From a virus: a DNA stretch of 64,000 bases. Position 1 is the stretch's first letter; every line of letters begins with the position of its first letter. Location: positions 1 to 64,000 of the IMG/VR virus record IMGVR_UViG_3300030294_000017, one strand, 5' to 3'. Shown here in pieces: positions 36,754 to 59,267 of the stretch. The notes under the pieces are model-generated. The model was not told the origin of the DNA. It saw nothing but the letters and a program-made list of their open reading frames with translations, and made no database searches. The translations under genes were made by a program, and so were the position numbers.

Positions 36754-37029
36754 ATGAAAAAGCTTAAGATATTTGAATCGGGTGAATACAATACAATGTT
36801 GTTATTCCTAAAATCTGATAATTATAAACAATTAACATCATTAAAGAGAAATATTGTTTATAGTTATATTATGATTGAATCAGGTAAAATGACATTAGCC
36901 GATGTAGCCAAGAAATTAGATATTTCACTAAATTTGGCACGTGGTTGGGTTGAACATGGTATTGGATTATACTCTGAAAATAAAATAAATCCTGATATAA
37001 TGTTCAAACCTCAAAACGCATTTATGTAA
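36754..37029 (+). CDS. HTH-like protein with MKKLKIFE propeptide-like N-terminus, 91 aa
   Basis: The body (LTSLKRNIVYSYIMIESGKMTLADVAKKLDISLNLARGWVEHGIGLY) resembles a helix-turn-helix. It is paralogous to the next gene (LTTLERNTVYCYIMTETKQMTTEQLVGKF). Relative to that paralogue it carries the extra N-terminal sequence MKKLKIFESGEY, shared with genes at 37255, 38371 and 58770. IFE followed by a small residue fits the (L/I)-x-E cut site of T4 gp21 prohead protease. A head-packaged DNA-binding protein is a reasonable hypothesis. Confidence 0.65.
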   Translation: MKKLKIFESGEYNTMLLFLKSDNYKQLTSLKRNIVYSYIMIESGKMTLADVAKKLDISLNLARGWVEHGIGLYSENKINPDIMFKPQNAFM

Positions 37030-37277
37030 TGGAAAATTCACAATTATTGTCATTTTTCGATACCAATGAATTCAGTAAGTTAACCACCTTGGAAAGGAAT
37101 ACAGTTTATTGTTACATAATGACTGAAACCAAGCAAATGACAACAGAACAATTAGTTGGTAAATTTAATCAGAGTCCAAAATTAATAGAAAGTTGGACAT
37201 ATTATGGCAAAGGTCTTTACACAGATTATAAAAATAATAAAATAAATATACAATATGAAAAAGTCAAAAGTTTTTGA
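37029..37277 (+). CDS. HTH-like protein, untagged paralogue, 82 aa
   Basis: Shares a base with the previous stop (TAATG) and overlaps the next gene by 23 nt. Same body as the gene at 36754 but without the MKKLKIFE peptide, so the pair suggests duplication with loss or gain of the tag. Confidence 0.6.
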   Translation: MENSQLLSFFDTNEFSKLTTLERNTVYCYIMTETKQMTTEQLVGKFNQSPKLIESWTYYGKGLYTDYKNNKINIQYEKVKSF

Positions 37278-37611
37278 AAGCAAAATAAATGAATCAGTTA
37301 TTGGAGATAATTGGCGTATATCAAGTGGTACAAATGCTGCTTTATCAAGTTTTGGATTCAATTTATCCGATAACATGAGAGAGGCAAAATTTCCTCAGTT
37401 GGAAAATACAGGTTCAAAGGATATGGCATCAGCTGTAGAAATAGTAATTACAGGTGCTGAGGATAATGGAAAATCTGTTGCCAAAGCACTTAATGATTCA
37501 GGTCTTGGATATAACAATTGGAAAGTTAAATCTGATGATGGAAAAAAGATTGAAATTACAAGTACTGATTCATCTGATAATACTTACTCAATAATACTTA
37601 CCAAGAGATAA
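37255..37611 (+). CDS. Protein with MKKSKVFE propeptide-like N-terminus, 118 aa
   Basis: Begins MKKSKVFESKINESVIGDNW, close to the shared MKKLKIFE peptide. The body has alternating strands and helices (ASAVEIVITGAEDNGKSVAKALNDSGLGYNNWKVKSDDGKKIEITSTDSSDNTYSIILTK), possibly a compact ferredoxin-like fold. Role unknown. Confidence 0.62.
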   Translation: MKKSKVFESKINESVIGDNWRISSGTNAALSSFGFNLSDNMREAKFPQLENTGSKDMASAVEIVITGAEDNGKSVAKALNDSGLGYNNWKVKSDDGKKIEITSTDSSDNTYSIILTKR

Positions 37612-37629
37612 CCAATTAATTTTAAAGTT

Positions 37630-37725
37630 ATGCCAACAAAACAAACAGAAAGTATAGGGTGTCTTTACACCTTGTTAAAAATAGGGTTGTGTATAGTAAT
37701 AATTGTATATTTAATAATACTTTAA
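37630..37725 (+). CDS. Membrane miniprotein, 31 aa
   Basis: ATG at 37630 after TTTAAAGTT. Product has a polar N-terminus (MPTKQTESIGC) and one hydrophobic segment (LYTLLKIGLCIVIIVYLIIL) to the end. Four bases separate it from the next gene, which is also envelope-directed. Confidence 0.5.
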   Translation: MPTKQTESIGCLYTLLKIGLCIVIIVYLIIL

Positions 37726-37729
37726 AATT

Positions 37730-38119
37730 ATGAGAACAAAATTTACACTTATTTTATCTTTGATGTTATTAACATGTATAACTGTGTTCAGTCAAAATAA
37801 AGAGCCTAAAAATGTTTTGACTATATTATATCAAGCAAGTGATTCAGCTAAGCATCAGACTAACAGAGAATTAAAGGCTAACCGTTATACCAAAATGTTT
37901 TATCAGGCTGATTCAGCGTTTAATTTAGTTGTATCTAAAGAAAAACAGATTGAACATTTTAAAAGTCAACTTAAGGTAGAGGACATTTATATTTATCATT
38001 TGGTTTATAATTCATGTAACATGTATCAGGATAGACTGCTATATTTACTTATAAATGACATGATTACAACAAGGGAATATTTATTCTTAATTCAAGCAAG
38101 TGAGGAACTGTCATTATGA
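37730..38119 (+). CDS. Secreted protein, 129 aa
   Basis: Signal peptide MRTKFTLILSLMLLTCITVFSQ. The mature part is helical and charged (LYQASDSAKHQTNRELKANRYTKMFYQADSAFNLVVSKEKQIEHFKSQLK), as in periplasmic spanin-like proteins. Together with the membrane miniprotein it may form an envelope pair; this is speculative. Overlaps the next gene by 4 nt. Confidence 0.62.
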   Translation: MRTKFTLILSLMLLTCITVFSQNKEPKNVLTILYQASDSAKHQTNRELKANRYTKMFYQADSAFNLVVSKEKQIEHFKSQLKVEDIYIYHLVYNSCNMYQDRLLYLLINDMITTREYLFLIQASEELSL

Positions 38120-38358
38120 AAAAATCTAACACACTGAATAAACCTGTTAATGAAAGTGTAAACATTTTCAAGGATTTCATAGATGGGATAAAATCGGATT
38201 TCAAGAATATAGGTACTGAATTTAAATCTGATTTAATAGCTATGTTTGATGAAACAAAGGAAACAGGTAAGCAAATTCAAAAGGATGCACAGGAAATCAT
38301 AGATGATGCATGCCTTAAATTGGAGGAACTTAAAAAAGGTTATCAGGATAAATTATAA
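38116..38358 (+). CDS. Small helical protein, MKKS N-terminus, 80 aa
   Basis: ATGA-coupled. Opens MKKSNTLNKPVNESVNIFKDF, a weaker version of the shared N-terminal peptide. The rest is an amphipathic helix (IGTEFKSDLIAMFDETKETGKQIQKDAQEIIDDACLKLEELKKGY), consistent with a small internal or packaged protein. Confidence 0.58.
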   Translation: MKKSNTLNKPVNESVNIFKDFIDGIKSDFKNIGTEFKSDLIAMFDETKETGKQIQKDAQEIIDDACLKLEELKKGYQDKL

Positions 38359-38370
38359 ATAATTAAAAAT

Positions 38371-38610
38371 ATGAAAAAGTTAAAAATTTTTGAGGCTAAT
38401 ATACCATCAGGTACAGATAAAAATATCAATATCTTTGAGGATATGACTATGGAACAGGTTGAATCTGAACTTAAGGGTGAAGAACTTAAAACATTTAACT
38501 CATTGGTAAGATTAGGTGATAGCATTGATCTAGCATATAAAACAGTTATTACCGACAGAGAAAATGAGGCTAAAAGGAACTCACAAGATAAACTACCATA
38601 TGAGGGTTAA
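38371..38610 (+). CDS. Protein with MKKLKIFE propeptide-like N-terminus, 79 aa
   Basis: Begins MKKLKIFEANIPSG and has a second similar motif NINIFEDM at about residue 21. The remainder is acidic and helical (MEQVESELKGEELKTFNSLVRLGDSIDLAYKTVITDREN). Last plus-strand gene before the convergent terminator. Confidence 0.62.
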   Translation: MKKLKIFEANIPSGTDKNINIFEDMTMEQVESELKGEELKTFNSLVRLGDSIDLAYKTVITDRENEAKRNSQDKLPYEG

Positions 38611-38707
38611 AATAAATAACGTGCATAATAGTTTAGTTTATAAATATTAAGAATTGGAAATGTCAGTAAAGTAGTAACCATTGCGATAATGTAAAAACTA
38701 CAACATG

Positions 38708-38745
38708 AAAGAAGCCACCAAGTTAATCCTTGATGGTTTCTTTGT
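38708..38745 (+). terminator. Intrinsic terminator at the convergent boundary
   Basis: Stem GAAGCCACCAAG / CTTGATGGTTTC (two G-U pairs) with loop TTAATC, flanked by AAA and TTTGTATT, so it could also act on the minus strand. It lies between the plus-strand cluster and the minus-strand tail gene. The rest of 38611-38856 shows no gene. Confidence 0.8.
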
Positions 38746-38856
38746 ATTAAAATGATTCTTTGTTATGCTGATACCACAAAAATGGTCAAAGTGCAAGGAA
38801 AGTATATCGTCTGTAGCCGTGAATATATTCTTAACTTTTTCATGTGCTTTACCGTA

Positions 38857-41598
38857 TTAATAGTCTATTTTATATTTATGAACAGTTATATAATTTGAGA
38901 AAAGTTCTGTCTTGTTATCACCTTTATTATTATACAATGTAACCTGTAAGGAATATTTTCCCGATTTGAAAAATGTATAACAGAAAAATAAATAATTATC
39001 AAGCTCAACAATAACTGTTCCATTTTCATCTAGTAATTTCCAATTTGCATTTGATTTACCAACAAATTGTGACCTCTTCAAGTTGAAAAATATGGTATCC
39101 GAAACGTGAATGGCTACATTATCAGTGAATATTTTAGTCATTCCCTTAGCAAATGGTAACAAATCTTTATCAGGGTTGAAATTTTGACCATATGTTTGGA
39201 ATGTCTGAGAGATTATATCATTGAATTGTATGTTATCAAAGAACATAAACTTATGATTTGCATAAGCCATGAAATCATCATCAACAAATTTTATCTTTCT
39301 AAAATCCTTTAATGTTTTAGGTGCATAAGTATCAAAAAGTGCTATGTATTCAGGTGTTTGATTTATAATTTCACTTGTATTAACAAAGGCGGTCAATGAG
39401 ATGGATTTTGGTGAAACATTAATTATTGAATGTTTGGTTAATACAGCCATTTCATTATTAAACTTATACAGTTTCATTTGTATGTTAAAAAGTCCACTAT
39501 TTGGTAAAGTAAGTGTAGTTTCTAGTAAATCATCAAGTTTACCAATCTTGGAATCAACTAATAAACCTGTTTTAACAGAAACGGCTGACCATTCTATTTG
39601 ATAATACTTGAATTTATCTACATTATTGAAAAATATTGAATATGTGGCGTTTTCTGTTTTTAATTGCTCAAATGTAACGTCAACATCCTGAATCTGTACA
39701 CCAAAGGTTAAATTTTTAACATTTATAACAGCACCTACTTTGCTAATAGGTGTATCAAATGTAAAACCTGATAAATCGGAAAGTAGAACGTTTATTATGT
39801 TATTATCCTCTACCCCATTTATTGAAAAGCGAATATTATCCTGTGAGATGGATTCAGAAATTAAGTTCCAATCATCATACCAAAAATTTATGTCATATTT
39901 GTTAAAGTAAGTTATCTCACCAATAATGTCTATAATAGATGAAATACCACCGATTTCACGGTCTTTAATCCAATTCTTAAGACCAAACAATTTTATTATA
40001 ATTTCCTCGTTTGAAAACATGAAACTATCCACTGTTTCGGGCAAACCATCTTGTGTATATTCACCATTAGTATGATTTATTGGATAGTACAACCCGAAAA
40101 ATGAGGTCTTTTTAAGTTGGCTATTATAACGTATAGTTTCGTCAAGTCTTCCCTGTTCATATAGTTTAATATCTTCTGCTATATATTTTCCCGTCTTTAT
40201 ATCAACCCAATATTCCTTAAGTGTTAAATCGGGGTAATCAAATAGGTTAAGTATGTTTATAAGACCTTTATAAGCTGAAAAGTAAGGCTTGATATTGTGC
40301 ATTTCAAGAATAAATTCCTTTTTCTTTTCATTAAGTAATATATGATTAGTAAGTTCCTCTTTGATGTCACTGTTACGGAATATATATTCCTCATTTGCTG
40401 TGATATATTCCCCGAAATCAGCAAGCTTTGCCGTTAACCTTTCATCCTCACCAACTACCTCTATATATACTGAGATTTCAGCTATTATCCTCCCAATTAA
40501 AGCACTATAGACAAGCAATTTGTCTATAACTGTTTTTTCTGTAGATGATTTAACGGCAAAATCTACTCTAAATGGCTTACGTATGTTTCCGCTACCTTCA
40601 ACTGTTGTAATAATATAAACATTGTTTTCATCCCCATTATAAGCTGTTACAGCACCATTAGTACCTATAAAGTCTGAGCCAATTTGCGTACCATCACTAT
40701 AATGTTCAACAGCCAAATTTTCTTGCAACCAGACTTGATTTCCATGCTTTACACAATGATATACATCACCATCAATAATTACACTTTCTACAAATACACC
40801 ATCCTCTTTAATCAATCTACAAGACATACCATCATGTTTACCTGTTGGCGTACTAAATGAAAAGGAATTACCATTACTAATTACAGCTCCATATGCACCC
40901 ATATCAGTAAATGATAAGCCACACACTCTACCCATTGCATTTGATGCTGTCTGTGAACCCGAAACCACCTGAACACCTGATGGATAGAGATTCATCCCTG
41001 ATGAATTATTCAGGGATGAATTATAACCTGCAGAACCAACATACGTACTAGGTAATATGTTCCAACCCTCTTTAGATGCTAAAGCTTTTGCCACTTTATT
41101 ATTACTAAAACTTGTTGTAATACTACCATCATAATTATATCCATTTTCTGCTAGGAATGTTACCAAAGTTTCCCAATCTGATCTTGATGGAACACGCCAT
41201 CCTGTAGGTGCAAGCTTTCTAGTGTTTGTTATAGCATACCAATTGTACAACCTACCATTTGTTATTTTTTTAATAGATTGTGGTGGTAGAATTTCCACAT
41301 TAAAAACTTTCTTATCTATAAATTCTACCTTGGGGAATTCATCATGTGGGTTTCCAACTGTAAAAATTTGATAATCCATGGAATTCATCAAACTAACGGT
41401 TAAATCACCGAATGATTTAGGCTGTATAAATTCACCACCTGTTTCCTCAAGTATGAATAAGGTTTCATTCTCAATCAAATCGGTTGAAACCTCAGGTAGA
41501 TACATTATACCTTGTAATATATCATATTCCTTATTATAGGAAAGTTCTAATTTATTACCATTTTTATTAAATATCGATAAAGCATTTAAATCACCCAT
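38857..41598 (-). CDS. Tail fibre/baseplate protein with FISUMP domain, 913 aa
   Basis: Start placed at MGDLNALSIF (ATG at 41598); the frame extends upstream only with a TTG. Residues about 100-300 match the FISUMP domain (Fibrobacter succinogenes major paralogous domain): GRLYNWYAITNTRKLAPTGWRVPSRSDWETLVTFL, ALASKEGW, GYNSSLNNSSGMNLYPSGVQ, GMSCRLIKED. FISUMP has a C-type-lectin-like fold often seen in adhesins. The long middle region is fibre-like, and the C-terminus has a PKD/Ig-like end (FFKSGKYSLQVTLYNNKGDNKTELFSNYITV). Probably a receptor-binding or tail component recognising the host surface. Confidence 0.75.
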   Translation of the reverse strand: MGDLNALSIFNKNGNKLELSYNKEYDILQGIMYLPEVSTDLIENETLFILEETGGEFIQPKSFGDLTVSLMNSMDYQIFTVGNPHDEFPKVEFIDKKVFNVEILPPQSIKKITNGRLYNWYAITNTRKLAPTGWRVPSRSDWETLVTFLAENGYNYDGSITTSFSNNKVAKALASKEGWNILPSTYVGSAGYNSSLNNSSGMNLYPSGVQVVSGSQTASNAMGRVCGLSFTDMGAYGAVISNGNSFSFSTPTGKHDGMSCRLIKEDGVFVESVIIDGDVYHCVKHGNQVWLQENLAVEHYSDGTQIGSDFIGTNGAVTAYNGDENNVYIITTVEGSGNIRKPFRVDFAVKSSTEKTVIDKLLVYSALIGRIIAEISVYIEVVGEDERLTAKLADFGEYITANEEYIFRNSDIKEELTNHILLNEKKKEFILEMHNIKPYFSAYKGLINILNLFDYPDLTLKEYWVDIKTGKYIAEDIKLYEQGRLDETIRYNSQLKKTSFFGLYYPINHTNGEYTQDGLPETVDSFMFSNEEIIIKLFGLKNWIKDREIGGISSIIDIIGEITYFNKYDINFWYDDWNLISESISQDNIRFSINGVEDNNIINVLLSDLSGFTFDTPISKVGAVINVKNLTFGVQIQDVDVTFEQLKTENATYSIFFNNVDKFKYYQIEWSAVSVKTGLLVDSKIGKLDDLLETTLTLPNSGLFNIQMKLYKFNNEMAVLTKHSIINVSPKSISLTAFVNTSEIINQTPEYIALFDTYAPKTLKDFRKIKFVDDDFMAYANHKFMFFDNIQFNDIISQTFQTYGQNFNPDKDLLPFAKGMTKIFTDNVAIHVSDTIFFNLKRSQFVGKSNANWKLLDENGTVIVELDNYLFFCYTFFKSGKYSLQVTLYNNKGDNKTELFSNYITVHKYKIDY

Positions 41599-41625
41599 TT
41601 TCAAATTTTTATTATTTACAAAATA

Positions 41626-41665
41626 CAAAAAAACCTGACAATTGTAAATAATACTGTCAGGCTTT
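41626..41665 (-). terminator. Intrinsic terminator, minus strand
   Basis: On the minus strand AAGCCTGACA pairs with TGTCAGGTTT (one G-U) around an AT-rich loop and is followed by TTTTTTTG. It ends the kinase-like/thyX transcript and overlaps the leader of the tail gene. Confidence 0.8.
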
Positions 41666-41701
41666 GTTTAAAATCTGTGTTGTTTAAAATTATTTATACT
41701 T

Positions 41702-42055
41702 TCATGGATAATCCAAACACACAACTCTACCTTTGTATATTCCAAAATTTGTCGATTTTAAATCAAAGTCCTGTACATTTTTAAAATATTCAACTTCATT
41801 ATCAGTCAATTCTCTACCAAGAGGTTTGCAATATTTTTGAACCTGAATTAGTCCAAAAATTGAGCAAAATAATGATGGTGCAACTTTATTATACAGTCTA
41901 CCATTATCATAATTCTTGAACACTTTACAAAAATTTCTTTCAGACCAATTGGCATGGCAGCCATTTAGAAAATTTAGATGGCTATATGTGAAATTGGGGA
42001 ATTTGATAACAAATTCCCCAATTTTTAATACTAATCTAGTAGCACCCCTTTCCAT
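41702..42055 (-). CDS. Protein-kinase-like small phage protein, 117 aa
   Basis: TRLVLKIGEFVIKFPNF resembles the glycine-loop/Lys strand, GLIQVQKYCKPL the hinge, and the end DFDLKSTNFGIYKGRVVCLDYP the catalytic D-x-K-x-x-N and metal-binding D-x-G-like LDY of the kinase fold. At 117 aa it is far shorter than a kinase domain, so it is a minimal or inactive kinase-fold protein, a type common in phages. Lies just downstream of thyX. Confidence 0.65.
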   Translation of the reverse strand: MERGATRLVLKIGEFVIKFPNFTYSHLNFLNGCHANWSERNFCKVFKNYDNGRLYNKVAPSLFCSIFGLIQVQKYCKPLGRELTDNEVEYFKNVQDFDLKSTNFGIYKGRVVCLDYP

Positions 42056-42066
42056 TTATTACTTAT

Positions 42067-42963
42067 TTAATCTAATGTTATATTATTAAAGCTATTTGTG
42101 TAACATTGGAATCTACCAAGCAAAGGTATAGCAAGTTCTCTAGCCTGTGGATGGGCTGCGGGTGCACATCTTAATTTAAAGAAGTGCCTCCAATCTGTCA
42201 TGAAACCTGTCATAATAAGTTCAGTTTTCAGAGAGTTTGGAAGTACGGCACGTGCCTGTTGTGGTTTCCATCCTGCAGCAATCTGAAAATTATATCCGTG
42301 TTCGGAATTTGACATATCATAAACGAAACTACAAAGTCCTCTTTTTTCTAAAGGCATGGATTCATCATGACCAAGTTCATAAACATCTTTATTGTTTATA
42401 TTTGCCATATCGACCAAACCCTGTACAATTTCTTCTTTACCTTGTAACCAAACAGGATAAATAAAAGTTATACAATTACCAAATTTTTCTTTGATGTAAT
42501 TACAAAAACGTGTAGACTCCTGAGTAAACGAGAATACCCGATGCCTTACAAATTCATGTGAAACACCCCTATCACAAATAAATCTTACTGTATATCTCTT
42601 TTCATGAAATTTTGTAGGTTTACTCATGTATTTCTTCATGGTATTAACTTTATTATTGTCAGTTATTACCCTGTAATTAGTTGTAATATATTTCCAATTT
42701 TTCACCTTGGAATATTTGTTAAGGAAGAAAAATAAAATAATAAGTAATGAGTACCATTTAACCGTGAGATAAATAGTACCGTGCTCTAGTACAGAACCAT
42801 GATTAACACCCTTAAGCATTTCAAGAAACTTGATATGGGAATCATCGGTAATTTTATCCTCTGATTTCCAAGCAACTCTACCACAGGTTTCTATGTGCTT
42901 TAGCATTCCAATTTCACCCGACTGTTGACCAATAATTTCAAAAGATGGCTTAATTAATTTCAT
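42067..42963 (-). CDS. thyX: Flavin-dependent thymidylate synthase ThyX
   Basis: 298 aa. The ThyX motif RHRxxSxxxxSxR is present as RHRVFSFTQESTR (140-152). Also seen are SVLEHGTIYLTVKW, SEHGYNFQIAAGWKPQQARAVLPNSLKTELIMTGFMTDWRHFFKLR and HPQARELAIPLL. It makes dTMP from dUMP with FAD, NADPH and methylene-tetrahydrofolate, downstream of the dUTPase. ATG in a T-rich minus-strand leader. Confidence 0.95.
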   Translation of the reverse strand: MKLIKPSFEIIGQQSGEIGMLKHIETCGRVAWKSEDKITDDSHIKFLEMLKGVNHGSVLEHGTIYLTVKWYSLLIILFFFLNKYSKVKNWKYITTNYRVITDNNKVNTMKKYMSKPTKFHEKRYTVRFICDRGVSHEFVRHRVFSFTQESTRFCNYIKEKFGNCITFIYPVWLQGKEEIVQGLVDMANINNKDVYELGHDESMPLEKRGLCSFVYDMSNSEHGYNFQIAAGWKPQQARAVLPNSLKTELIMTGFMTDWRHFFKLRCAPAAHPQARELAIPLLGRFQCYTNSFNNITLD

Positions 42964-43014
42964 TTTGTTTAAATTGTTTCAATTGTTAATAATTTAGTTA
43001 ATAAAGTCTGTTTT

Positions 43015-43124
43015 TAAACACGTGTATTGGATACCTAATACTTGCACAATACCCTATCATATTAAATCACTATACTGATTATTCGTGGTACTTGCAGTTG
43101 CCCAATCCATTCTACACGTGTTTA
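43015..43124 (-). other. Inverted repeat between lipoprotein gene and thyX
   Basis: TAAACACGTGTA (43015-43026) and its exact complement (43113-43124), with TTGG/CCAA continuing the pairing after an internal loop. The interior has two TACTTGCA direct repeats. It lies in the thyX 5' leader on the minus strand. No T-run follows, so leader regulation or mRNA processing is more likely than termination. Confidence 0.5.
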
Positions 43125-43129
43125 ATTTA

Positions 43130-43246
43130 CTACATGTGTTTGTAATGCGGGGTATTTATTTTCTGCTGAACCCGATACAATCCGTTGTCTGAACACGAGG
43201 AAAAAGAGATGCAAATAATAAAAAGTAAAAAGACTAATTTTTTCAT
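43130..43246 (-). CDS. Tiny lipoprotein, 38 aa
   Basis: Minus-strand ATG at 43246; product MKKLVFLLFIICISFSSCSD... has a typical signal peptide with lipobox FSSC and a mature part of about 20 residues. Small lipoproteins of this size include outer-membrane spanins and entry-exclusion lysis proteins. No partner identified next to it. Confidence 0.6.
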   Translation of the reverse strand: MKKLVFLLFIICISFSSCSDNGLYRVQQKINTPHYKHM

Positions 43247-43274
43247 AATAGAATAATTTTTAATGTTTATAATT

Positions 43275-44183
43275 TTATAATGTAGGAACACTTTCCATGG
43301 CAATAATAAGCCCCATTTCTAAAGCGTAATCATGTGTACCGATTATTGGCGTATTCTTATAATTCATAGAATTAACATAGATCAAATCACTGTGAATTCT
43401 AAATTGGTAAGTTCTGTTAGACCATGAATGAATAATAGGTTGAACATGTATATCATGTTCATCCCTTAACCATGCCTGAATATCTTGCAAATATCTACCA
43501 TTATTGCTACATTCACAACCTTTAGAAATAGCCATTTTGATTATATCAATATTTGGCTTATATGTTTGCTCTTGCGTGTCCAATTGTATCTTTACAATAA
43601 TATACCCGTTGGCATCAAGTTTTAGGTAAAACTCAGGAATTAAATTACCTGCTTCATTTTCATTATTTGATAATTCAAAAGTACATTCAACTAAAGCATT
43701 TACATAATTTGATGAATCTATGTTAGCAACACCTATGATATTACATGACTTTATAAATCGTCTTATAAATTGTTCAGATGGTCTTGGTAATAGGCTCTTG
43801 GTAGAAATAGTATCCCAATCCAATAGTTCGTTGGTAGATGCAATAATTTTCTTCCAATCAGCCAATCTATAACCATTAGCATACTTTATACCTTTAGAAT
43901 CAGTAGTATAATATTTCAAGTGTTCTTTCAAGTATTTCGTGTTTGGATTGAGTGCCCAACAATCAGTACCCTCTTCAATTAATTCATCAACAATGAAGTA
44001 AAGATGATGTGGTTTAGCTTTTGTGTTTAGTAAATCTTTTGATAAAGATTCAGCAATTCTCAATTTTCCGTTCTCAATTACTATATCACCCCTCTGTAAA
44101 GATGTAGAACTAGCTAATATTATATTAGACTTAACGTAATATTTACCATCCATTGCAATAACTTGACTTTTATCTATCTTCAT
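43275..44183 (-). CDS. PxPSxxFI-family protein, paralogue 2 (302 aa)
   Basis: Longest of the four paralogues. Shared landmarks: KSQVIAMDGKYYVKSNIILAS, GYRLADWKKIIASTNELL, then LPRPSEQFIRRFIKSCN and NALVECTFEL, and a C-terminal region different from the others (MAISKGCECSNNGRYLQDIQAWLRDEHDIHVQP, ending in HDYALEMGLIIAMESV). The specialised C-terminus suggests functional divergence. Confidence 0.68.
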   Translation of the reverse strand: MKIDKSQVIAMDGKYYVKSNIILASSTSLQRGDIVIENGKLRIAESLSKDLLNTKAKPHHLYFIVDELIEEGTDCWALNPNTKYLKEHLKYYTTDSKGIKYANGYRLADWKKIIASTNELLDWDTISTKSLLPRPSEQFIRRFIKSCNIIGVANIDSSNYVNALVECTFELSNNENEAGNLIPEFYLKLDANGYIIVKIQLDTQEQTYKPNIDIIKMAISKGCECSNNGRYLQDIQAWLRDEHDIHVQPIIHSWSNRTYQFRIHSDLIYVNSMNYKNTPIIGTHDYALEMGLIIAMESVPTL

Positions 44184-44191
44184 AATTTTAA

Positions 44192-44725: not shown

Positions 44726-44733
44726 AGTTTTAA

Positions 44734-44952
44734 TTATATTAGTTCAGATTTATCAATTAAGTTCATAGTATCATTTTTGTATTTATCTTCAAGCTTTTTA
44801 TCAATAGATTCTTTATATTTAATTAGCTCTTTCATAACTGCAGGTTCTAATGCTACTATATTATTCGTGTGGTCACCAACAGCCAACCAAATTTGAAACC
44901 CATCAAATGAGGCATAAACCCCATCACCTAAGTATACATTATCTTCTTCCAT
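44734..44952 (-). CDS. Hypothetical protein, 72 aa
   Basis: EEDNVYLGDGVYASFDGFQIWLAVGDHTNNIVALEPAVMKELIKYKESI resembles small phage proteins with the pattern YLGDGvYa.fdg..i.L.t.dg....I.LepeV...L..Y. Function unknown. Confidence 0.7.
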   Translation of the reverse strand: MEEDNVYLGDGVYASFDGFQIWLAVGDHTNNIVALEPAVMKELIKYKESIDKKLEDKYKNDTMNLIDKSELI

Positions 44953-44961
44953 AATTTAATA

Positions 44962-45666: not shown

Positions 45667-45670
45667 AGTT

Positions 45671-46348: not shown

Positions 46349-46365
46349 AATTTATAAGTTTTAAA

Positions 46366-46743: not shown

Positions 46744-46773
46744 AATATTTTATTTTCTAATATTATGATTAAC

Positions 46774-47706: not shown

Positions 47707-47708
47707 AA

Positions 47709-51800: not shown

Positions 51801-52257
51801 AATATTGGCATCAAAAAAATTTGGTGAAACCAACTATTATAAACAAAAACAATTTAGTCAAAAATCTGATTTTTCCGATAATGCGGCTTTGACACAAATA
51901 GTTGAACTTCCACAAAAAAACGGGTTTGCTGAATGGGATAAGTATTTAATTGGCTCTGATACTTGTGGTGCATATCTTAAAATATTCCCACAACTAAACC
52001 GTTCATTATATGTTGGCTCTCAGATGTATAATAAAGGACTAACATTGAATAATTCATTGATCAAAATACCTATATTGTTTCAAACACGTATGACTGATTT
52101 TTTCGGTGCGGGTAACGATGGTTCAGGTAACATTGGTGGCATTGGAAGCATAGGAAATGTTACTTATTCTAAAAAGATAGGTATAGACATTGCTCAAAGA
52201 AGTGTTGAGGATTTATTTTCATTTGATATAACATTTACTAAAAGTTATCAGAAATAA
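48823..52257 (+). CDS. Large virion structural protein, 1144 aa
   Basis: Longest gene in the window. Beta-rich N-terminal half, a coiled coil at about residues 410-500 (QLESQIKEKYAEKEKIKTEI ... SKIESQIDDAYTKRKNLTAN), then a fibronectin-type-III-like piece (ETVEIRVRSISEVGYPIYAIVSDWAESVIVEFP), a second helix, and a Tyr/Asn-rich C-terminal part. No signal peptide. The features point to a baseplate-wedge or tail-fibre-network protein. Start AAAATAGTTATG. TAATG overlap with the RuvC-like gene. Confidence 0.72.
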   Translation: MAKNLTKGGMDKYLQELIRRDANGLNLIKVYAEMLFTSNEKVILTYTNEDSTESIYEIPSMAYLLSAVARVEKNFDNLSGIGILESSIILPDGTRRIILAQNTPKEPKTVVINAATVINAFDVEQYDVYQNLVTPKAFIPISLKPYFDKNVKSAVVRKIVITETNETKLTYFSNYIKNNIYKYNDLKSVLDGQAIYYKEVDYNVDVTPKMLKYSGNFDVVSYRKSIISDNQALVVGTMLYKIDSTSYVENNTGIKQSLKIGDQVVVNDSSGNKSTIYKIAFIDYDTFEISVQRIEGLDAVKIGVGTLSILGLYDEDIKAKIPIDINEMFAPFIKIVTNESLVSSNWGESKFIVTNTLIKDKVSFSDYFNANISDIRNGIKYLAAVNHTSLDDYIAPNTPSLLVSNFTVGVINKHKQEQLESQIKEKYAEKEKIKTEIASVDVSITNLKGKLFVETYDISRSKIESQIDDAYTKRKNLTANYQSIVSDLLATINTNGTFSPKYAIRGFFDIPSDVYTDEVNKIGAQGIIKFECEYRYLTVNKTSTNAQPTSYIDKNGNKVSATSTDWNKLLDLPQRFKVFNKDTGKSEWKNVVESNADEMSINEVMIPITENETVEIRVRSISEVGYPIYAIVSDWAESVIVEFPSDLVKNNQSIIQELSSDNFLSTLFQELQSIGLYEHLKDSSSSADQKFNHAAENISMNYFTPENKKMSVEQVVASMKEDISSIKANYLTQIGDIDIYIEDSNGNLITTIENESSVQIQAPYYRDQVEQLTDRKGKIINDTYYLVIRNKTNYDSNILSFVPGYYNKFLPTVDYNGYIRNASEYNQYRKYFLSPIGYSYYKETDNDYIAFKNSNPNLELPEYASMQAYGQLLYQRYMDFSLSEPLYTADEYNFLKLSGGAGAEDFIWNGSWDVDALFSPNGGGNNTSFAVHKLHPALGGNADIQVQPTNYKNLRTAIDSNGDNIYSNQTLGDFIPRYLKYNGNFIYPMFYQTILASKKFGETNYYKQKQFSQKSDFSDNAALTQIVELPQKNGFAEWDKYLIGSDTCGAYLKIFPQLNRSLYVGSQMYNKGLTLNNSLIKIPILFQTRMTDFFGAGNDGSGNIGGIGSIGNVTYSKKIGIDIAQRSVEDLFSFDITFTKSYQK

Positions 52258-52964
52258 TGGTTGAAACAGAAATAGTAAGTGTAGATTATTCACTTAATTC
52301 AACGGGTGTCACAATATATAATTGTGACACCAAATCACATAAATTTTTATCATTTGTAAATATATATAAGGATAAAAAAACTGAAAGTATAGCTGAAAGT
52401 ATAACGAATTATGTAATCGTTCAAAAATATCACAGACCACCAATCAAAGCGGTAAAATCACGAGTAAATGGATTGTCGGGTTGGGAAAAAGACCATATAA
52501 ATAATTGTATATCATATAACAGGCAATTATCTGATTTTATATGCATGCATGTTTCCAATGAAAACAGGAATATATTAGTTTTTGAGAATTATTCATATGG
52601 TTCTGCTTCTGATACTTTCATACAAATTATTGAAAACACAATGGAATTAAAGTCAAACCTTTTAAAAACCACATTTTTTGAAATGGATGATCTGTTTTTG
52701 GTAACAGCACCACAAGTTAAAAAATTTGCGGGTGGTGGTAATTTTGACAAGTACCAATTACTTATATCTTTTATTGCGTTGAAAGATGAAAATTTGACGG
52801 CTTGTGGCTTTCATAAACTTATGACTAATGACTGTGATAAGTTTGCATCGTTAAAAAATAAAAAGGGTAAGAGCGTTAATGAGGTTGCCAAGCCAATAGA
52901 TGATATAATTGACTCATTTTGGATAAACAAGTATTTCCAATTTTTCTTTAATGATTTTATTTAA
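52257..52964 (+). CDS. RuvC-like Holliday junction resolvase
   Basis: 235 aa with an RNase H-fold acidic set in RuvC order: VDYSLNSTGV (D10), LVFENYSYG (E110), the basic APQVKKFAGGGNFDKYQL segment and KPIDDIIDSFW (D215/D216, D219). It would resolve branched replication and recombination intermediates before packaging, the job done by endonuclease VII in T4. Its 3' end overlaps the convergent gene by 8 nt and forms one arm of a 20-bp inverted repeat. Confidence 0.82.
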   Translation: MVETEIVSVDYSLNSTGVTIYNCDTKSHKFLSFVNIYKDKKTESIAESITNYVIVQKYHRPPIKAVKSRVNGLSGWEKDHINNCISYNRQLSDFICMHVSNENRNILVFENYSYGSASDTFIQIIENTMELKSNLLKTTFFEMDDLFLVTAPQVKKFAGGGNFDKYQLLISFIALKDENLTACGFHKLMTNDCDKFASLKNKKGKSVNEVAKPIDDIIDSFWINKYFQFFFNDFI

Positions 52965-52982
52965 TCATTAAAGAAAAATTGG
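52937..52982. terminator. Bidirectional terminator formed by two coding ends
   Basis: Perfect 20-bp inverted repeat CCAATTTTTCTTTAATGATT (52937-52956) / complement (52963-52982), 6-nt loop. The left arm encodes the RuvC-like C-terminus (FQFFFNDF), the right arm the C-terminus of the convergent gene (ANFSLMIK). T-rich on both strands. Confidence 0.75.
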
Positions 52983-53304
52983 CTTCTGAATTTATGGAGA
53001 AATCTATTAAACAAACATCCCTCTCAGTTCCTTTTGCAAATTTTACATTGATTTGAGTATCAAAATTATCATATAAAGATGTGTATTGACTCAATTTATC
53101 AAGTATCAATTTTTGTATAGCTGATTCATCAAGATTTATATCATACACTAATTCTTCTAAATTTACTGTCATAGTCGGACACCCCAACACCTCAGTTTTA
53201 TCTGTATTGAGTACCATTAATATCTCTTGGATATAAACGTATAGAAGGTCTGTTAAATCATCATCAGTAGAATTTAATATGTCTAAGTCTATAACAGTTA
53301 TCAT
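52957..53304 (-). CDS. Hypothetical protein, possible baseplate component, 115 aa
   Basis: Single minus-strand gene inside a plus-strand structural block. VNLEELVYDINLDESAIQKLILDKLSQYTSLYDNFDTQINVKFAKGTERDVCLIDFSI shows alternating helix and strands with a length like T4 gp25-type baseplate proteins, but lacks a diagnostic motif. Confidence 0.58.
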   Translation of the reverse strand: MITVIDLDILNSTDDDLTDLLYVYIQEILMVLNTDKTEVLGCPTMTVNLEELVYDINLDESAIQKLILDKLSQYTSLYDNFDTQINVKFAKGTERDVCLIDFSINSEANFSLMIK

Positions 53305-53325
53305 AAATTTTTAATTATTTAAAAT

Positions 53326-53895
53326 ATGAAAGATATAATTGATGCACTGCAATCCATTAGCACATCATTATTTGAACAGTTTTTACCTTTTTTTGAAATT
53401 GAAAATGGTAGAATAATGATGTACAGCCAAAAATTCCACATATCATTCATTATTGATAAAAGTGAAAATACTAATTATATACCTTATCATTTAACATGCT
53501 ATGATGAAAATAGTAAAATGGTTATATTATCTGTTAATAATAAAGAATTAAACGATTTAGAACTATTAAAACCTAAATTAATTAATTTTTTGAATTCTGC
53601 GGAAGAATTACAAAATAATATGAGTTCTAAATATGTTACACAATATATAGAAAGAGTAAAATATCTTTCTGATAATACTGAGTTTAAAAATATAGATAAA
53701 TATCAGGAATTTTTATTCAGCTGTGGTACTGATGATGGTATGCTATTTTCAATAAAAGGCACTGATATTTACATAAAAATTAAGGAATCCAAGGTTGACA
53801 TGTGTGTAATTAACAAATCACAAATATCTTACCTTAAACGTCAAAGAATATTAAAAATGTTATCGACATTAGTAAATACTTATATTTTTGGATAA
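53326..53895 (+). CDS. Hypothetical protein, 189 aa
   Basis: Mixed alpha/beta with IIDALQSISTSLFEQFLPFFEIENGRIMMYSQKFHISFIIDKS and FSIKGTDIYIKIKESKVDMCVI. Its start is 21 nt from the divergent start of the minus-strand gene. No domain recognised. Confidence 0.6.
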   Translation: MKDIIDALQSISTSLFEQFLPFFEIENGRIMMYSQKFHISFIIDKSENTNYIPYHLTCYDENSKMVILSVNNKELNDLELLKPKLINFLNSAEELQNNMSSKYVTQYIERVKYLSDNTEFKNIDKYQEFLFSCGTDDGMLFSIKGTDIYIKIKESKVDMCVINKSQISYLKRQRILKMLSTLVNTYIFG

Positions 53896-53899
53896 TAAA

Positions 53900-54322
53900 A
53901 TGGAAAATAAATTAAAGAAAGTTCTTGAGCTATGTGAATTCGTGGAACTTACAAAGAAAAATGTGCTAGTTTGGCAACCTGAAATAAATCATCACATAAT
54001 TGGTGAAACATTGGCGGGTAATGTCGGTGTGGTTGTATCAATTTCAGCATTGGCATATAAATTTAATAAATCAGACATTGTTTTTTATGGTGATATGTCG
54101 GGTGTGTTCGTTAAATTCAATAAGGAAAAATTCGTTTTGTTGGGAGAAAATGAAATACTTGGTAAAATATCAATTAAAGATGGTATGGTATGTAAACCAA
54201 TACCATATGTTGAAGATTTTGAAATTGGCAAAACAGACGATTGGCAAAAATATTTCGATGAATTGGCTATAACAAACGGTGCTCTTTTAACAGGCAATGA
54301 CTTAAACTTACAAATAGATTAA
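53900..54322 (+). CDS. Hypothetical protein, 140 aa
   Basis: ATG at 53900 (MENKLKKVLELCEFVELTKKNVLVWQPEI); a TTG at 53888 also lies in frame. Beta-rich middle (GNVGVVVSISALAYKFNKSDIVFYGDMSGVFVKF). No domain recognised. Confidence 0.6.
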   Translation: MENKLKKVLELCEFVELTKKNVLVWQPEINHHIIGETLAGNVGVVVSISALAYKFNKSDIVFYGDMSGVFVKFNKEKFVLLGENEILGKISIKDGMVCKPIPYVEDFEIGKTDDWQKYFDELAITNGALLTGNDLNLQID

Positions 54323-54326
54323 CATT

Positions 54327-54614
54327 ATGGAAACTGATGTATTAAAAATCACACCAAGGATATTAAAAAAGACTCATAAAAACTTAATGATTATTGAGGC
54401 TAGTTTTATATATTGTAAAAGACATGGTTTAGATGAAGAAAATTTTATTGAGGACACTTTTATGACTGATGATTTTAGTAAATCCGAAGAAATAGAATTT
54501 GACAAAATTTGTAACGACTTAAGAGGTTTTAGAGGATGTCTTGGAAACTATGAACTTAGGGAAATATCTGTGGAAGAATATGAATTGTGTGTTGATAAAT
54601 TTGGTGCAGAATGA
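54327..54614 (+). CDS. Hypothetical protein, 95 aa
   Basis: Acidic and helical (LMIIEASFIYCKRHGLDEENFIEDTFMTDDFSKSEEIEFDKICNDLRGF). Overlaps the ABC-GNAT gene by 4 nt (ATGA), so the two are probably made together and could act together. Confidence 0.62.
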   Translation: METDVLKITPRILKKTHKNLMIIEASFIYCKRHGLDEENFIEDTFMTDDFSKSEEIEFDKICNDLRGFRGCLGNYELREISVEEYELCVDKFGAE

Positions 54615-55780
54615 GTAAGATAAATCTTGAGCATGAAATAATCAATGACGAATATACAGAATATGTTTATTCAACGTTTGATATACAAGACTCTGATAAA
54701 ACATCAACCGAAATCATTTTTGATTTATCAGAAATGAATGAGTCTGATTGGAACATTGGAATAATACTTGGAAGCAGCGGTTCGGGTAAATCATCGATAT
54801 TAAGATCAATTGGTAACATACCTGATGTAAAGTTTGATACTAACAAGGCACTTATAAGTAACTTTAATTTCTTAGACCCAAAAGAAGCTACATTTGCTTT
54901 AACATCTGTTGGGCTTTCATCAGTTCCCACATGGCTAAGACCTTTTCATTTACTTTCAAATGGTGAACAATACAGAGCAAAATTAGCCTATCTAATTGCA
55001 TCATCAAAAGATGGTGAGATAATACTCATTGACGAATATACATCGGTTGTTGATAGATATGTTGCAAAGTCCATGTCATTCGCAATACAAAAATATGTAA
55101 GGAAATTAAACAAAAAGATAATAATTGCATCGGTACACTATGATGTGTTAGAATGGTTATTACCTGATTGGTCTGTTAATCTTCAAAATGGAGGCATGTC
55201 CAAAAGACATGACTGCCGAAGGCAAGGAAGACCTAAAATTGACTTGCAAGTCTATAGAACAGAGCCTAATACTTGGGAAATCTTTAAAAAACATCATTAT
55301 CTAACCTCGGAATCTAACAAGGGCTTCGGATATCTTGTATTTGTATGGGATGACATTCCTGTTGGAATATGTGTTTATAAAACTTTCCCAACGGGTAACT
55401 TTCCCAACGGGTATGCACTCAGCAGAACTGTTGTACTTCCTGATTTTCAGGGTATGGGTATAGGCAAATCAATTTCTGAATTTACAGCGGGAATAATAGT
55501 TCATAATGGTGGGAGATTATTTACAAAAACTATAAACCCCGCACTTGGCGAACACCGCAATAAATCACCGCTTTGGAGAGGTACTAGTAAGAATGGCAAA
55601 TACAGAAGCGATATAGATTATGGTAACAGTATTTATAAAAGAAGAATGATGAAAAAAGTACTTTCTAGAACCTCTTATTGCCATGAGTACATAGGCAAAC
55701 CAATTAGTGGACACGATGAATTACTATTACCTATAAAAATTATGAGAATACAAAAGAAACAAAAATTATCAATATTTTAA
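54611..55780 (+). CDS. ABC-ATPase fused to GNAT acyltransferase (Mom-like candidate)
   Basis: 389 aa, two domains. Residues 1-200: ABC ATPase with Walker A GSSGSGKSS (K60), signature LSNGEQYRAKLAYLIA (116-130), Walker B IILIDEYTSVVDR (137-149) and H-loop ASVHYD (H176); no membrane segment. Residues 209-360: GNAT fold, RPKIDLQVYRTEPNTWEIFKKHHYL, VGICVYKTFP, acyl-CoA loop VLPDFQGMGIGKSISEF, then INPALGEHRNKSPLWRG. The end block resembles SHPALixHRxRSPLWR in a bacterial and phage ABC-GNAT family related to phage Mu Mom, which modifies adenines to resist restriction. A DNA-modification role is therefore inferred; tRNA or protein acylation cannot be excluded. Confidence 0.8.
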   Translation: MSKINLEHEIINDEYTEYVYSTFDIQDSDKTSTEIIFDLSEMNESDWNIGIILGSSGSGKSSILRSIGNIPDVKFDTNKALISNFNFLDPKEATFALTSVGLSSVPTWLRPFHLLSNGEQYRAKLAYLIASSKDGEIILIDEYTSVVDRYVAKSMSFAIQKYVRKLNKKIIIASVHYDVLEWLLPDWSVNLQNGGMSKRHDCRRQGRPKIDLQVYRTEPNTWEIFKKHHYLTSESNKGFGYLVFVWDDIPVGICVYKTFPTGNFPNGYALSRTVVLPDFQGMGIGKSISEFTAGIIVHNGGRLFTKTINPALGEHRNKSPLWRGTSKNGKYRSDIDYGNSIYKRRMMKKVLSRTSYCHEYIGKPISGHDELLLPIKIMRIQKKQKLSIF

Positions 55781-55784
55781 TATT

Positions 55785-56219
55785 ATGGTAAAATGTATAG
55801 TTTGCGGAAAAGAAATAGAGGAATCTCATTATAGGGATGAAGTTCCCGTAATGTGTGGTGATAAGTGTTTTCATATTAATTTTTGGAATGAGAAAGTTAA
55901 AAGCTACGGAAATGGTACAAACGGGTACTCAAAAAAAATAGCCATTGTTAATGGTAGCCATTATACTTTTTATCCTGATAGTAGTGAAACGTTTTTTCAA
56001 GGTCATGGCGGAAGACAGTTTAAAATCATATTTAACGATGGTCGTATTGTTCAGACAAAAAACCTTTGGCATCAGGGTGATATACCATTAAATTTTAGAA
56101 ATTTATTACCCGATAATGCAATATTTGTTGAATCAGATGAAGCCATTGAAAACAGAAGAAAACATAAAGAATTAATGTCAAAATTAAGGACTATACGAGT
56201 AGAATCTAAGGATATTTGA
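55785..56219 (+). CDS. Zinc-finger phage protein, 144 aa
   Basis: N-terminal zinc pairs CIVCGKEI ... VMCGDKCFHINFWNEKV, then a beta domain SKKIAIVNGSHYTFYPDSSETFFQGHGGRQFKIIFNDGRIVQTKNLWHQGDIP. This two-part layout recurs in phage hypotheticals. It follows the ABC-GNAT gene by 4 nt and might be a partner. Confidence 0.68.
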   Translation: MVKCIVCGKEIEESHYRDEVPVMCGDKCFHINFWNEKVKSYGNGTNGYSKKIAIVNGSHYTFYPDSSETFFQGHGGRQFKIIFNDGRIVQTKNLWHQGDIPLNFRNLLPDNAIFVESDEAIENRRKHKELMSKLRTIRVESKDI

Positions 56220-56282
56220 CACGTAAGACAATATCATAATATAAAAATTATATAAAAAATTAATAATTAAACAAAATTAACA

Positions 56283-56564
56283 ATGAAAAATGGAAAGTTA
56301 ATTGTGCGTACAATAGGCACTACAGTTAAGGTGGCAATAATCGTTGGTGTTGTTTTGGTTTGTTGTTTTGGTATCATTTCATCCAATGCATATACAATAC
56401 CAAAGAATGAAACCCCAAAAATTGTAAAAACCCCAAGTAATATGCGTAATTTAAAATTACTCAGAAAATGGGAGGTAAAAGGAATCCATTGCTACGTATT
56501 TGTTATGGGTAAAGATACATTGATAGCATACTCTGAATCTGATATACACAGACAACAACAGTAA
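56283..56564 (+). CDS. Single-span membrane protein, 93 aa
   Basis: Hydrophobic segment TVKVAIIVGVVLVCCFGIISSNAY near residues 14-38 (signal anchor), then a polar C-terminal domain (LKLLRKWEVKGIHCYVFVMGKDTLIAY) that may face the periplasm. Followed by a terminator. Function unknown. Confidence 0.62.
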   Translation: MKNGKLIVRTIGTTVKVAIIVGVVLVCCFGIISSNAYTIPKNETPKIVKTPSNMRNLKLLRKWEVKGIHCYVFVMGKDTLIAYSESDIHRQQQ

Positions 56565-56576
56565 AGTAATTAATTT

Positions 56577-56612
56577 AATGACTGTCATTGCTTATAATGA
56601 CAGTCATTTCTG
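56577..56612 (+). terminator. Intrinsic terminator
   Basis: Perfect 13-bp stem AATGACTGTCATT / AATGACAGTCATT with loop GCTTAT, then TTCTGTATTT. Confidence 0.85.
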
Positions 56613-56652
56613 TATTTATACATCGAGTTAAATAATTAAAAATATAATTTAT

Positions 56653-58746
56653 ATGATTACTCCACTTCTCTCACTTTTTAAAAAGGGTGTATTTATTACA
56701 ATGCCGTCAGCATCGGAAGACCTCAATGCATCATTTATGCCTCAAAGCAATACTAACAAGTTTTTGTTTTCACATTATGCATTATTAAACTTACCCAAAA
56801 TACAACCAACATTAGGTGGTAATACCCAAAATTCTATGAACTTTCTAAACATAGAGGGTCATTATGTGAATGGTTTAAATACTCAATTAACAGAACCAAA
56901 TGCACAGAATAAGCTTGATTTTTCTGAAAGCTTTCAGAACTATGTCATGAATTTTGAGGCTAATCTTACAAGTCAAAGTATCTATAACAGGGCTAATTTA
57001 AGGACAGTATCTGAGCGTATCTTCTTTAAATGGTTAAAAGAGATTGGTGCTTTAAGATTTCAAAATGCTGATAACACAAAGAAAGTATCTTCTCTTGCCG
57101 ACAGTAGATTTTTAGAGGAAAACACATCCGCTAACACTTACAAAAGAGTTGTGGAATATATAGGACATGTAGAAATGCAAGGTTCTAACACTAAACAAAA
57201 TGAAAATCAGTTCAACGAGGTCTATATAAATATTCCATCTCAAAATGGTAATACACCTACCGTGCTTTTCAAGTCTATATCCGATGAAAATTATAATGAG
57301 GATACTGTAATACAGGTTACTACAAGCCCCGAATATATAAAAGGTAGAACTATTGATGATAATCCTACATCTGCAGGTTTGTCGGTTGATGCTGTTTATG
57401 ATATAGACATTAATGAGGGTGGGCTGACGTATGTTGTTAACGGTACATCAAAACCAACATCTTGGTATGGTTCAAAGGCGTTTGCTGTAAATTCTTATAT
57501 TACAGACCCTGTATTTAACGATGCTACAACTGATACTATATCAAGAGGTGGTGGAAGCACGGCTGTGATATTCAAACGTTCAAGGCTTGATGGCATTTCA
57601 ATAGATTTTGATATTGAAAATTATCAAGAGGTTGTAAATTATAATAATGATAACATAGATCAAATTTCAACATTTACACAGTTTAATAATACACCAAGTG
57701 CGGCAAATTTTGATTTTAATACCTTATTGCTTTATTATGACGTATATGATGCAAATGATGAAACTATAAGGTCAACAAATTTATTCGGTGTATTGTTTCT
57801 TGACGATATTGTACCTGTAGTTGATGTAATATCTCAGATAACATCACTTGAAAAAATAAAACAATCTAATTTCTTAGGAAACACAGGTAATGGTTATGGT
57901 CTTAAACTTAATTTTAAATTTGATGTTTCGACCAATACTGTTGATAAAAAGATAGAGGTATCAGTAAACGATTACAATACTTTGTCAATGTCAATGTTCT
58001 TGGATGCCATAAATAACATTCAACTATTATCAAGAAATTATGAGGAACTGTTATCATACACAAAAACATTAATTGCTCAAAATGAAGAATATCAAAGGTT
58101 GCTAGCTGATTCCAATTTATTAACAACCATTTCAGCAATACTAAAAAAACAAAATGAATTATTGGTTGATAATGTTGATGAATCTACAATATTGGGCTTA
58201 CTTGGTAAACAACAAGCTCAGATCACTCAAATACTTCAAGGCAAAACAGATGTTGATGTTAATGTATTATTTTCTGTAAATGGAATGCAGGGTATTACGG
58301 CTGTAGTAACTGACCAAAATATAACATTAACCAACAATACCCAACAATATAATAATATTATCAAGAAAAATTTTGATTTTTCAACGGGCAATGAACTAAG
58401 TGGTAATAACATAATTGTATTACAACCTCTATCAACATTAATTTATCATGAGAATGATTTTATTGAAAAAACGGCTCAAGCAAATTTGGTAATCAAAGTA
58501 AATGATTTATCAACAAAATGGAAAAACGGGCAAACCATGCGTATTGTTTTTAATCATCCTGTTGATATACAAAACAGAGCGATATATATTTACACCGATT
58601 CCGATGGTTCTGTTTCGGGTTCAAATAAAGCTTATTCTAAACTTATTGGAACTATTGATAATTTGGGTGACCAAAAATATCCAATATTCGATATAACCTG
58701 TGTTAACGAAACTACTTATGATTTCGTTATGACTAGAATACAATAA
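56653..58746 (+). CDS. Virion structural protein, 697 aa
   Basis: Start MITPLLSLFKKGVFITMPSASEDLNASF; an internal ATG (MPSASEDLN) is a second candidate. Segments FVNSYITDPVFND, DFNTLLLYYDVYDANDETIRSTNLFGVLFLDDI and a helical stretch (AINNIQLLSRNYEELLSYTKTLIAQNEEYQRLLADSNLLTTISAILKKQNELL) suggest an extended tail, baseplate or fibre protein. Preceded by a terminator, so probably its own transcript. No named family. Confidence 0.68.
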   Translation: MITPLLSLFKKGVFITMPSASEDLNASFMPQSNTNKFLFSHYALLNLPKIQPTLGGNTQNSMNFLNIEGHYVNGLNTQLTEPNAQNKLDFSESFQNYVMNFEANLTSQSIYNRANLRTVSERIFFKWLKEIGALRFQNADNTKKVSSLADSRFLEENTSANTYKRVVEYIGHVEMQGSNTKQNENQFNEVYINIPSQNGNTPTVLFKSISDENYNEDTVIQVTTSPEYIKGRTIDDNPTSAGLSVDAVYDIDINEGGLTYVVNGTSKPTSWYGSKAFAVNSYITDPVFNDATTDTISRGGGSTAVIFKRSRLDGISIDFDIENYQEVVNYNNDNIDQISTFTQFNNTPSAANFDFNTLLLYYDVYDANDETIRSTNLFGVLFLDDIVPVVDVISQITSLEKIKQSNFLGNTGNGYGLKLNFKFDVSTNTVDKKIEVSVNDYNTLSMSMFLDAINNIQLLSRNYEELLSYTKTLIAQNEEYQRLLADSNLLTTISAILKKQNELLVDNVDESTILGLLGKQQAQITQILQGKTDVDVNVLFSVNGMQGITAVVTDQNITLTNNTQQYNNIIKKNFDFSTGNELSGNNIIVLQPLSTLIYHENDFIEKTAQANLVIKVNDLSTKWKNGQTMRIVFNHPVDIQNRAIYIYTDSDGSVSGSNKAYSKLIGTIDNLGDQKYPIFDITCVNETTYDFVMTRIQ

Positions 58747-58769
58747 ATTATATAAAAATATAAAATAAT

Positions 58770-59267
58770 ATGAAGAAATTAAAAATTTTTGAAGGTTATA
58801 ACATAAATAGTGATGATACAATTTTAGAATCACATGGTGATTATTGGGTTGACCCTAATAATGGTAATAAATGGAGTAAATCCAAATATGAAAAAGGAGA
58901 AGCAACATATATCAGTACGAAGTTAAAGAACTGTACCAATTGTATAGATACGGCAGGTAGTACAAATTGCAAAGACTGTGTGAATTGTATACAATGTTCT
59001 GATTGTGCTAATTGTATAGATTGTGATTTTTGTAAAAATTGTACTGATTGTACTGATTGTCAACACTGTAATGATTGTAAAAATTGTATTAAATCTGACC
59101 ATTCCAAAAATTGTACTAATTGTGAAAAACTTGGTCAATATTCTTTAGCTGACAGAGGTTGTACCAATTGTACCAATTGTACCAATTGTTATTCGTGTAA
59201 AGATTGTAAAGATTGTAAAGATTGTGGTAATCAATCGGGTGTTAGCGGTGTTAGCGATGTTAATTAA
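58770..59267 (+). CDS. Cys-rich CxxC-repeat protein with MKKLKIFE propeptide-like N-terminus, 165 aa
   Basis: Begins MKKLKIFEGYNINSDDTILESHGDYWVDPNNGNKWSK. From about residue 51 it becomes a ladder of C-x2-C/C-x-x-C units (NCKDCVNCIQCSDCANCIDC, then NCTNCTNCYSCKDCKDCKDC), with over 35 cysteines. The DNA shows runs of TGTACCAAT and TGTAAAGAT units. Such a ladder could form a metal-loaded or disulphide-linked helix. The shared N-terminal peptide suggests it may be packaged in the head. It stands directly behind a virion gene. Confidence 0.7.
   Translation: MKKLKIFEGYNINSDDTILESHGDYWVDPNNGNKWSKSKYEKGEATYISTKLKNCTNCIDTAGSTNCKDCVNCIQCSDCANCIDCDFCKNCTDCTDCQHCNDCKNCIKSDHSKNCTNCEKLGQYSLADRGCTNCTNCTNCYSCKDCKDCKDCGNQSGVSGVSDVN

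Follow-up and report, generated by a model that had tools for sequence, protein, structure and literature searches.

We analysed the first 64,000 bases (hereafter, the window) of the 90,251-base viral record IMGVR_UViG_3300030294_000017 and conclude that MKKLKIFE, an octapeptide with which several of its small proteins begin, is very probably a capsid-targeting propeptide of the kind known from phage T4. Judged from sequence, about ten unrelated small proteins of this phage appear to be loaded into the head and are probably delivered into the next cell; the cargo proteins of the window are putative effectors, with anti-defence or host takeover as the most likely kinds of function. We favour this conclusion because the modularity of the peptide, the turnover of the cargo, matching tags in related phages, the recovery of the T4 tags and cargo domains of polyvalent type all agree. 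A previous sequence-only reading of the window had proposed capsid targeting, and the evidence presented here supports that interpretation at each point open to sequence analysis; packaging, cleavage and injection are what we infer from it. In T4, the first ten residues of the internal proteins suffice for packaging (PMC9026906), each of the three internal proteins blocks a restriction enzyme of its own (PMC12373910), and the prohead proteases of T4 and its relatives cleave after Glu (PMC9026906, PMC5694885).

The proteins encoded at 36754, 37255, 38371 and 58770 share the start MKK(L/S)K(I/V)FE exactly as had been claimed (Table 1; ↓ marks the predicted cut, P1 the residue before it and P1' the residue after it). 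Based on a composition model, 8e-6 starts of the form MKK[LS]K[IV]FE are expected in 135 genes; among the 227 N-termini of the window phage, the maximum number of similar partners per gene was 8, compared with never more than 1 in 200 column shuffles. The codons of the tag vary synonymously among copies (AAA AAG CTT AAG ATA TTT GAA; AAG AAA TTA AAA ATT TTT GAA; AAA AAG TTA AAA ATT TTT GAG) and, therefore, it is the protein and not the DNA that is conserved, with selection acting on the peptide. The bodies behind the tags are, as previously described, unrelated to one another: the sole pairwise similarity is that between 36754 and 37029, rightly recognised as a paralogue without the peptide, and their alignment runs from residue 11 of the former and residue 2 of the latter, that is, just past the tag. 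The weak member at 38116 lacks the octamer and has MKKSNTLNKPVNE↓S (PVNE↓S) instead; because its homologue in the sister phage G001 (38% identity) carries the full tag MKKLKVFE↓S, we regard it as a real member. The InPase-domain protein at 18732, with a degraded tag, was absent from the earlier list, and searching the remaining genome for the peptide added tagged genes that lie upstream of the window, at 31554, 77493, 77912, 78179 and 78431 of G009, a 125-kb contig that overlaps the upstream part of the window (a 46-kb contig, G008, has the same capsid gene). P1' is S, A, G or N in eight of nine tags of the window phage and in eight of nine of G001 (16/18; background 0.24), and conservation falls beyond this residue. 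The two-site layout [FY]E↓[SAN]K[LI]NE↓[SA] is common to 37255 and several tags of Sphingomonas phage PAU. No convincing late-promoter or upstream motif is shared by the tagged genes, among which a T4-like TATAAATA precedes only 38371.

The sequence-only reading also depended on a gp21-like prohead protease, and the phage encodes one next to a Gp23-type capsid gene. Specifically, an 808-residue protein encoded just past the window, at positions 66013-68439 of the record, fuses a head maturation protease to a scaffold-like region; it matches phrog_207, a family of such proteases (E=6.6e-24), and, only below the cut-off, Pfam Peptidase_S77. Its catalytic His (SLDHPE), Ser (SSRASG) and Asp (TFDIVY) align with those of T4 gp21 and six other phage proteases. 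The adjoining gene (68484-70100) encodes the capsid protein (PF07068, E=1.7e-11), the N-terminal region of which ends SVFE↓AATTANTPGKG, the predicted maturation point. Sites of the form hydrophobic-x-E↓S/A/N are kept at this position by six other phages (MaF61 KIYE↓SV, PTm1 INE↓SY, pT24 ILE↓SY, PAU LME↓NY, MA9V-2 LNE↓SI and T4 LTE↓AE) in an alignment that is gap-rich at the maturation point and hence approximate. IFE had been read as a (L/I)-x-E site of gp21 type, and the IFE/VFE class indeed recurs in the protease-scaffold and at the capsid maturation point: [ILV][FYN]E[SAG] has 12 occurrences in the protease-scaffold, two in the propeptide of the capsid protein and one per tag, and is rare elsewhere. 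In a blind ranking by [ILVM]xE[SAGN] density, the protease-scaffold came first in the window record; the T4 positive control returned gp22, gp21 and gp68, and gp22 and gp68 are core proteins digested by gp21 (PMC5694885). Of the 21 [IV][FN]E-type sites in the capsid protein and the protease-scaffold, 11 follow a K or R, as the tag site does (background 0.12, p=9e-6), and an internal scaffold sequence, KRLKVNE, resembles the tag.

These sites bear on two alternatives. The extreme N-terminal position of the peptide, its Lys-rich composition and the shortness of the genes would suit an element that promotes efficient initiation of translation, or one that governs stability as an N-terminal degradation signal, and in either case does nothing in the head. 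We consider this very unlikely, because the codons vary synonymously, because P1 Glu and a small P1' are conserved and conservation then stops, and because K-[IV]-[FN]-E-S recurs inside the scaffold and the capsid protein, far from start codons. Short N-terminal peptides can also be sorting signals in general, and the tag might direct its carriers elsewhere, e.g. to a phage replication compartment or a membrane; yet the peptide has no hydrophobic or lipoprotein feature and such sorting would leave the match with the protease and scaffold sites unexplained; we regard this explanation as extremely unlikely.

By capsid protein, the nearest isolates include Flavobacterium phage MaF61, Sphingomonas phage PAU, Tenacibaculum phages and Prevotella Lak phages, and the capsid protein of the sister phage G001 (167,485 bp) is 86% identical. 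Homologues in G001 exist for 119 of the 227 genes of the window phage (median identity 64%), and the same search found a clear one for only two of the ten tagged proteins, the relation of 38116 having come from a separate direct comparison. G001 itself has at least nine tagged proteins, with tag variants including MKPLKIFE↓S and MKPLKLFE↓N, and their bodies are mostly not shared with the window phage. As for domains, InPase (PF18823) is found in the G001 protein starting MKPLKIFE↓S and in its window orthologue 18732 (E 1.6e-54 and 1.4e-50), one tagged protein of PAU has a PRTase domain slightly below the Pfam cut-off, and a large site-rich protein of G001 carries LPD11; both InPase and PRTase have been described in polyvalent proteins, for which entry into the cell together with the DNA has been predicted (PMC5512222). 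Save for the InPase domain of 18732 and a match of 58770 to phrog_15341, the cargo bodies of the window have no convincing match in Pfam, PHROGs or NCBIfam; for 36754 and 37255 no homologues were found in phages or IMG/VR beyond this phage itself, and the predicted structure of 36754 is of low confidence (predicted local distance difference test score, pLDDT, 58). Homologues of 58770 in Campylobacter T4-like phages start at approximately its residue 25, are tag-less and lie beside the portal gene.

We also considered that the tagged proteins, although packaged and cut, serve as minor core or scaffold helpers or as DNA-condensing head proteins and not as effectors in the next host. This would be in line with the PAU tag being carried also by gp152, annotated as scaffolding by its authors, and with most of the cargo having no recognisable enzyme domain. 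However, core proteins should be conserved, whereas most tagged bodies are unshared between two phages with 64% identity in the proteins that they have in common, and the InPase and PRTase cargo belong to enzyme types of the polyvalent proteins, which are predicted to be injected. We therefore judge this explanation unlikely and retain delivery into the next cell.

To look beyond the window phage and its sister, where the pattern MKKxKxxFE was absent from the six other large phages searched, we used an unbiased scan for N-termini common to different genes within one phage, by which some of these phages have tags of their own. Counting [ILVM][FYN]E[SAGN] loosely within residues 1-16 gave only moderate enrichment, and that in some phages; this stricter similarity scan was therefore used. 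The scan recovers the known T4 tags (the MKTYQEFIAE pair and MKTFKEFIKE). It also reveals MKT[LI]xxLYE↓[SA] (e.g. MKTLSKLYE↓S) on 20 proteins of PAU, including the annotated scaffold gp152 and the internal capsid protein gp154; MKNIxSYxEFLNE↓[SA] on 20 proteins of contig G017; MKSLSTHITE↓S in G021; and MK[NT]FxxFINE↓[SA] in MA9V-2. In these phages, too, the tagged bodies are unrelated, and P1' is S, A, G or N in 18 of 20 tags in PAU, 18 of 20 in G017 and six of six each in G021 and MA9V-2 (background ~0.24). As a control, the scan at internal Met residues returned 0 genes in T4, 2 in G017 and 0 in G021. Across seven phages, pairing the P2 residue of each tag with the protease-scaffold sites of its own phage beats all other assignments (permutation p = 1/5040; 1/720 without the sister phage). 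In total, approximately 70 tagged proteins, mostly unannotated, come from six phages or contigs. We note a further set in G020, a 388-kb contig in which at least 15 unrelated proteins start MVHIKRINE↓M; this set may follow another rule and, because its P1' is Met, we left it out of the argument.

The tagged genes lie in small clusters (36754-38610; 77493-78748 in G009; 30807-31521 in G001), as might be expected if the shared start were a functionless relic of gene duplication or of body-swapping recombination behind a common start. Against this, the peptide is kept while its DNA differs at synonymous sites, single scattered loci are also tagged (58770; 88768 and 138437 in G001), and distant phages keep different yet equivalent tags; we regard a relic as extremely unlikely. 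We think it likely that large gp21-protease phages, well beyond the T-evens, generally use a lineage-specific N-terminal code for capsid targeting; each lineage would keep a tag suited to its protease and scaffold and place it on unrelated proteins that change quickly and number from 6 to 20 or more.

Several observations weigh against capsid targeting as we propose it. The turnover of cargo relative to G001 is only borderline significant (Fisher p=0.05), and the window copy of the InPase protein, 18732, has lost the P1 Glu (IFK↓P), a natural Glu-to-Lys change that is predicted to block cutting. The P2 test is partly post hoc, the tag patterns having been defined after the tags had been seen. 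MaF61, PTm1, pT24 and G014 gave no comparable tag family in the same scan despite having the protease and capsid protein and, therefore, a tagged cohort is not universal. Finally, we found no virion proteome, N-terminal sequence or cleavage data in the papers searched for PAU, MA9V or MaF61, the MA9V-1 paper containing only an SDS (sodium dodecyl sulfate) gel.

Our working model is that, late in infection, the tag would bind the prohead core via the scaffold region of the fusion protein. After completion of the shell, the gp21-type protease domain would cut after (I/V)FE and the octapeptide would be lost. The freed protein, starting with S, A, G or N, would stay in the head with the DNA and enter the next host cell together with it.

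Table 1. Tags, cargo bodies and related features in the window, with tagged proteins of the sister phage G001 (aa, amino acids)
Feature	Position	Strand	Remarks
InPase-domain protein	18732..19268	+	Degraded tag MKKLQIFK↓P; sister orthologue MKPLKIFE↓S
Tag MKKLKIFE↓S of a 91-aa protein	36754..36777	+	Predicted cut before S9
Cargo body 1, to stop codon	36778..37029	+	Helical, possibly helix-turn-helix (low-confidence model); no family match
Tag-less paralogue of cargo body 1	37029..37277	+	39% identity over 72 aa
Tag MKKSKVFE↓S of a 118-aa protein	37255..37278	+	Second site KINE↓S at residues 10-14
Cargo body 2	37279..37611	+	No known family
Weak member, MKKSNTLNKPVNE↓S	38116..38358	+	G001 homologue MKKLKVFE↓S
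Tag MKKLKIFE↓A of a 79-aa protein	38371..38394	+	Predicted cut before A9
Cargo body 3	38395..38610	+	No known family
Tag MKKLKIFE↓G of a 165-aa protein	58770..58793	+	Predicted cut before G9
Cargo body 4, Cys-triplet repeat protein	58794..59267	+	phrog_15341; tag-less homologues in Campylobacter T4-like phages
Tagged proteins of G001	30807, 31037, 31276
Tagged proteins of G001	68650, 71617, 88768, 96703, 138437	-

Other features were noted in passing. The body encoded at 58770-59267 consists of Cys triplet repeats, (xxC)n, and has further homologues in Flavobacterium phage FL-1 and in Vibrio phages, where they are annotated as insect antifreeze protein. Two large proteins, L058:16346-19702 (1118 aa, LPD11) and L060:10912-14049 (1045 aa), contain 11 and 8 candidate prohead-protease sites, respectively, and each is probably a head-packaged polyvalent protein that is cut into pieces. 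Directly after the tagged cluster, the minus strand at 38857-41628 encodes a protein of 923 aa that contains a Fib_succ_major domain (PF09603, E=8.9e-21). At 15877-16433, a phage methionine transfer RNA (tRNA-Met) lies beside a predicted transfer-messenger RNA (tmRNA) gene, the tag peptide of which ends VVAFAA.

The proteins that phages inject with their DNA are the first to act against host defences and are mostly uncharted outside a few models. If our reading of the tag is true, the injected proteome would be predictable from sequence, and a readable tag would point to candidate anti-defence or takeover proteins in Bacteroidota phages, a group with few known examples. The tag might also serve as a peptide handle by which selected proteins are loaded into the heads of such phages.

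Among known systems, three are the closest. SPN3US and phiKZ resemble the window phage in that a gp21-related protease cuts head proteins after Glu and each propeptide has several such sites (PMC10052503, PMC5694885); in contrast to the tags described here, the SPN3US propeptides are mostly long (111-254 aa), share no short tag and are cut at S/A-x-E, with S or A and not I, V or L at P3. Polyvalent proteins, such as P1 DarB, have InPase, PRTase and LPD domains (PMC5512222), and we find InPase on the G001 tagged protein and window 18732, PRTase in PAU and LPD11 in G001; among the tagged proteins, a domain of the polyvalent set is confined to 18732 and its G001 orthologue (InPase) and the one PAU protein (PRTase). 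Unlike polyvalent proteins, the proteins described here are mostly short and single-domain with a processing tag, the LPD11 protein excepted, and two or more disparate domains in one polypeptide were not found among the tagged proteins of the window, which are 79-187 aa in length and have at most one recognised domain. The T4 internal proteins IPI, IPII and IPIII (MKTYQEFIAE, gp21) share with the window phage a short N-terminal peptide on unrelated small bodies, a peptide end of the form hydrophobic-x-E before a small residue, a gp21-type protease, the same class of site in the scaffold and capsid protein, and fast turnover of the cargo. The tag of G017, of MKNIQSYDEFLNE type, resembles MKTYQEFIAE and that of the window does not clearly do so, these peptides being too short to judge homology. 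What is new compared with T4 is the sequence of the peptide, MKKLKIFE, the fusion of the protease to the scaffold, and the size of the cargo set, with about 10 tagged proteins in the window phage and about 20 each in PAU and G017 versus three in T4 in the same scan.

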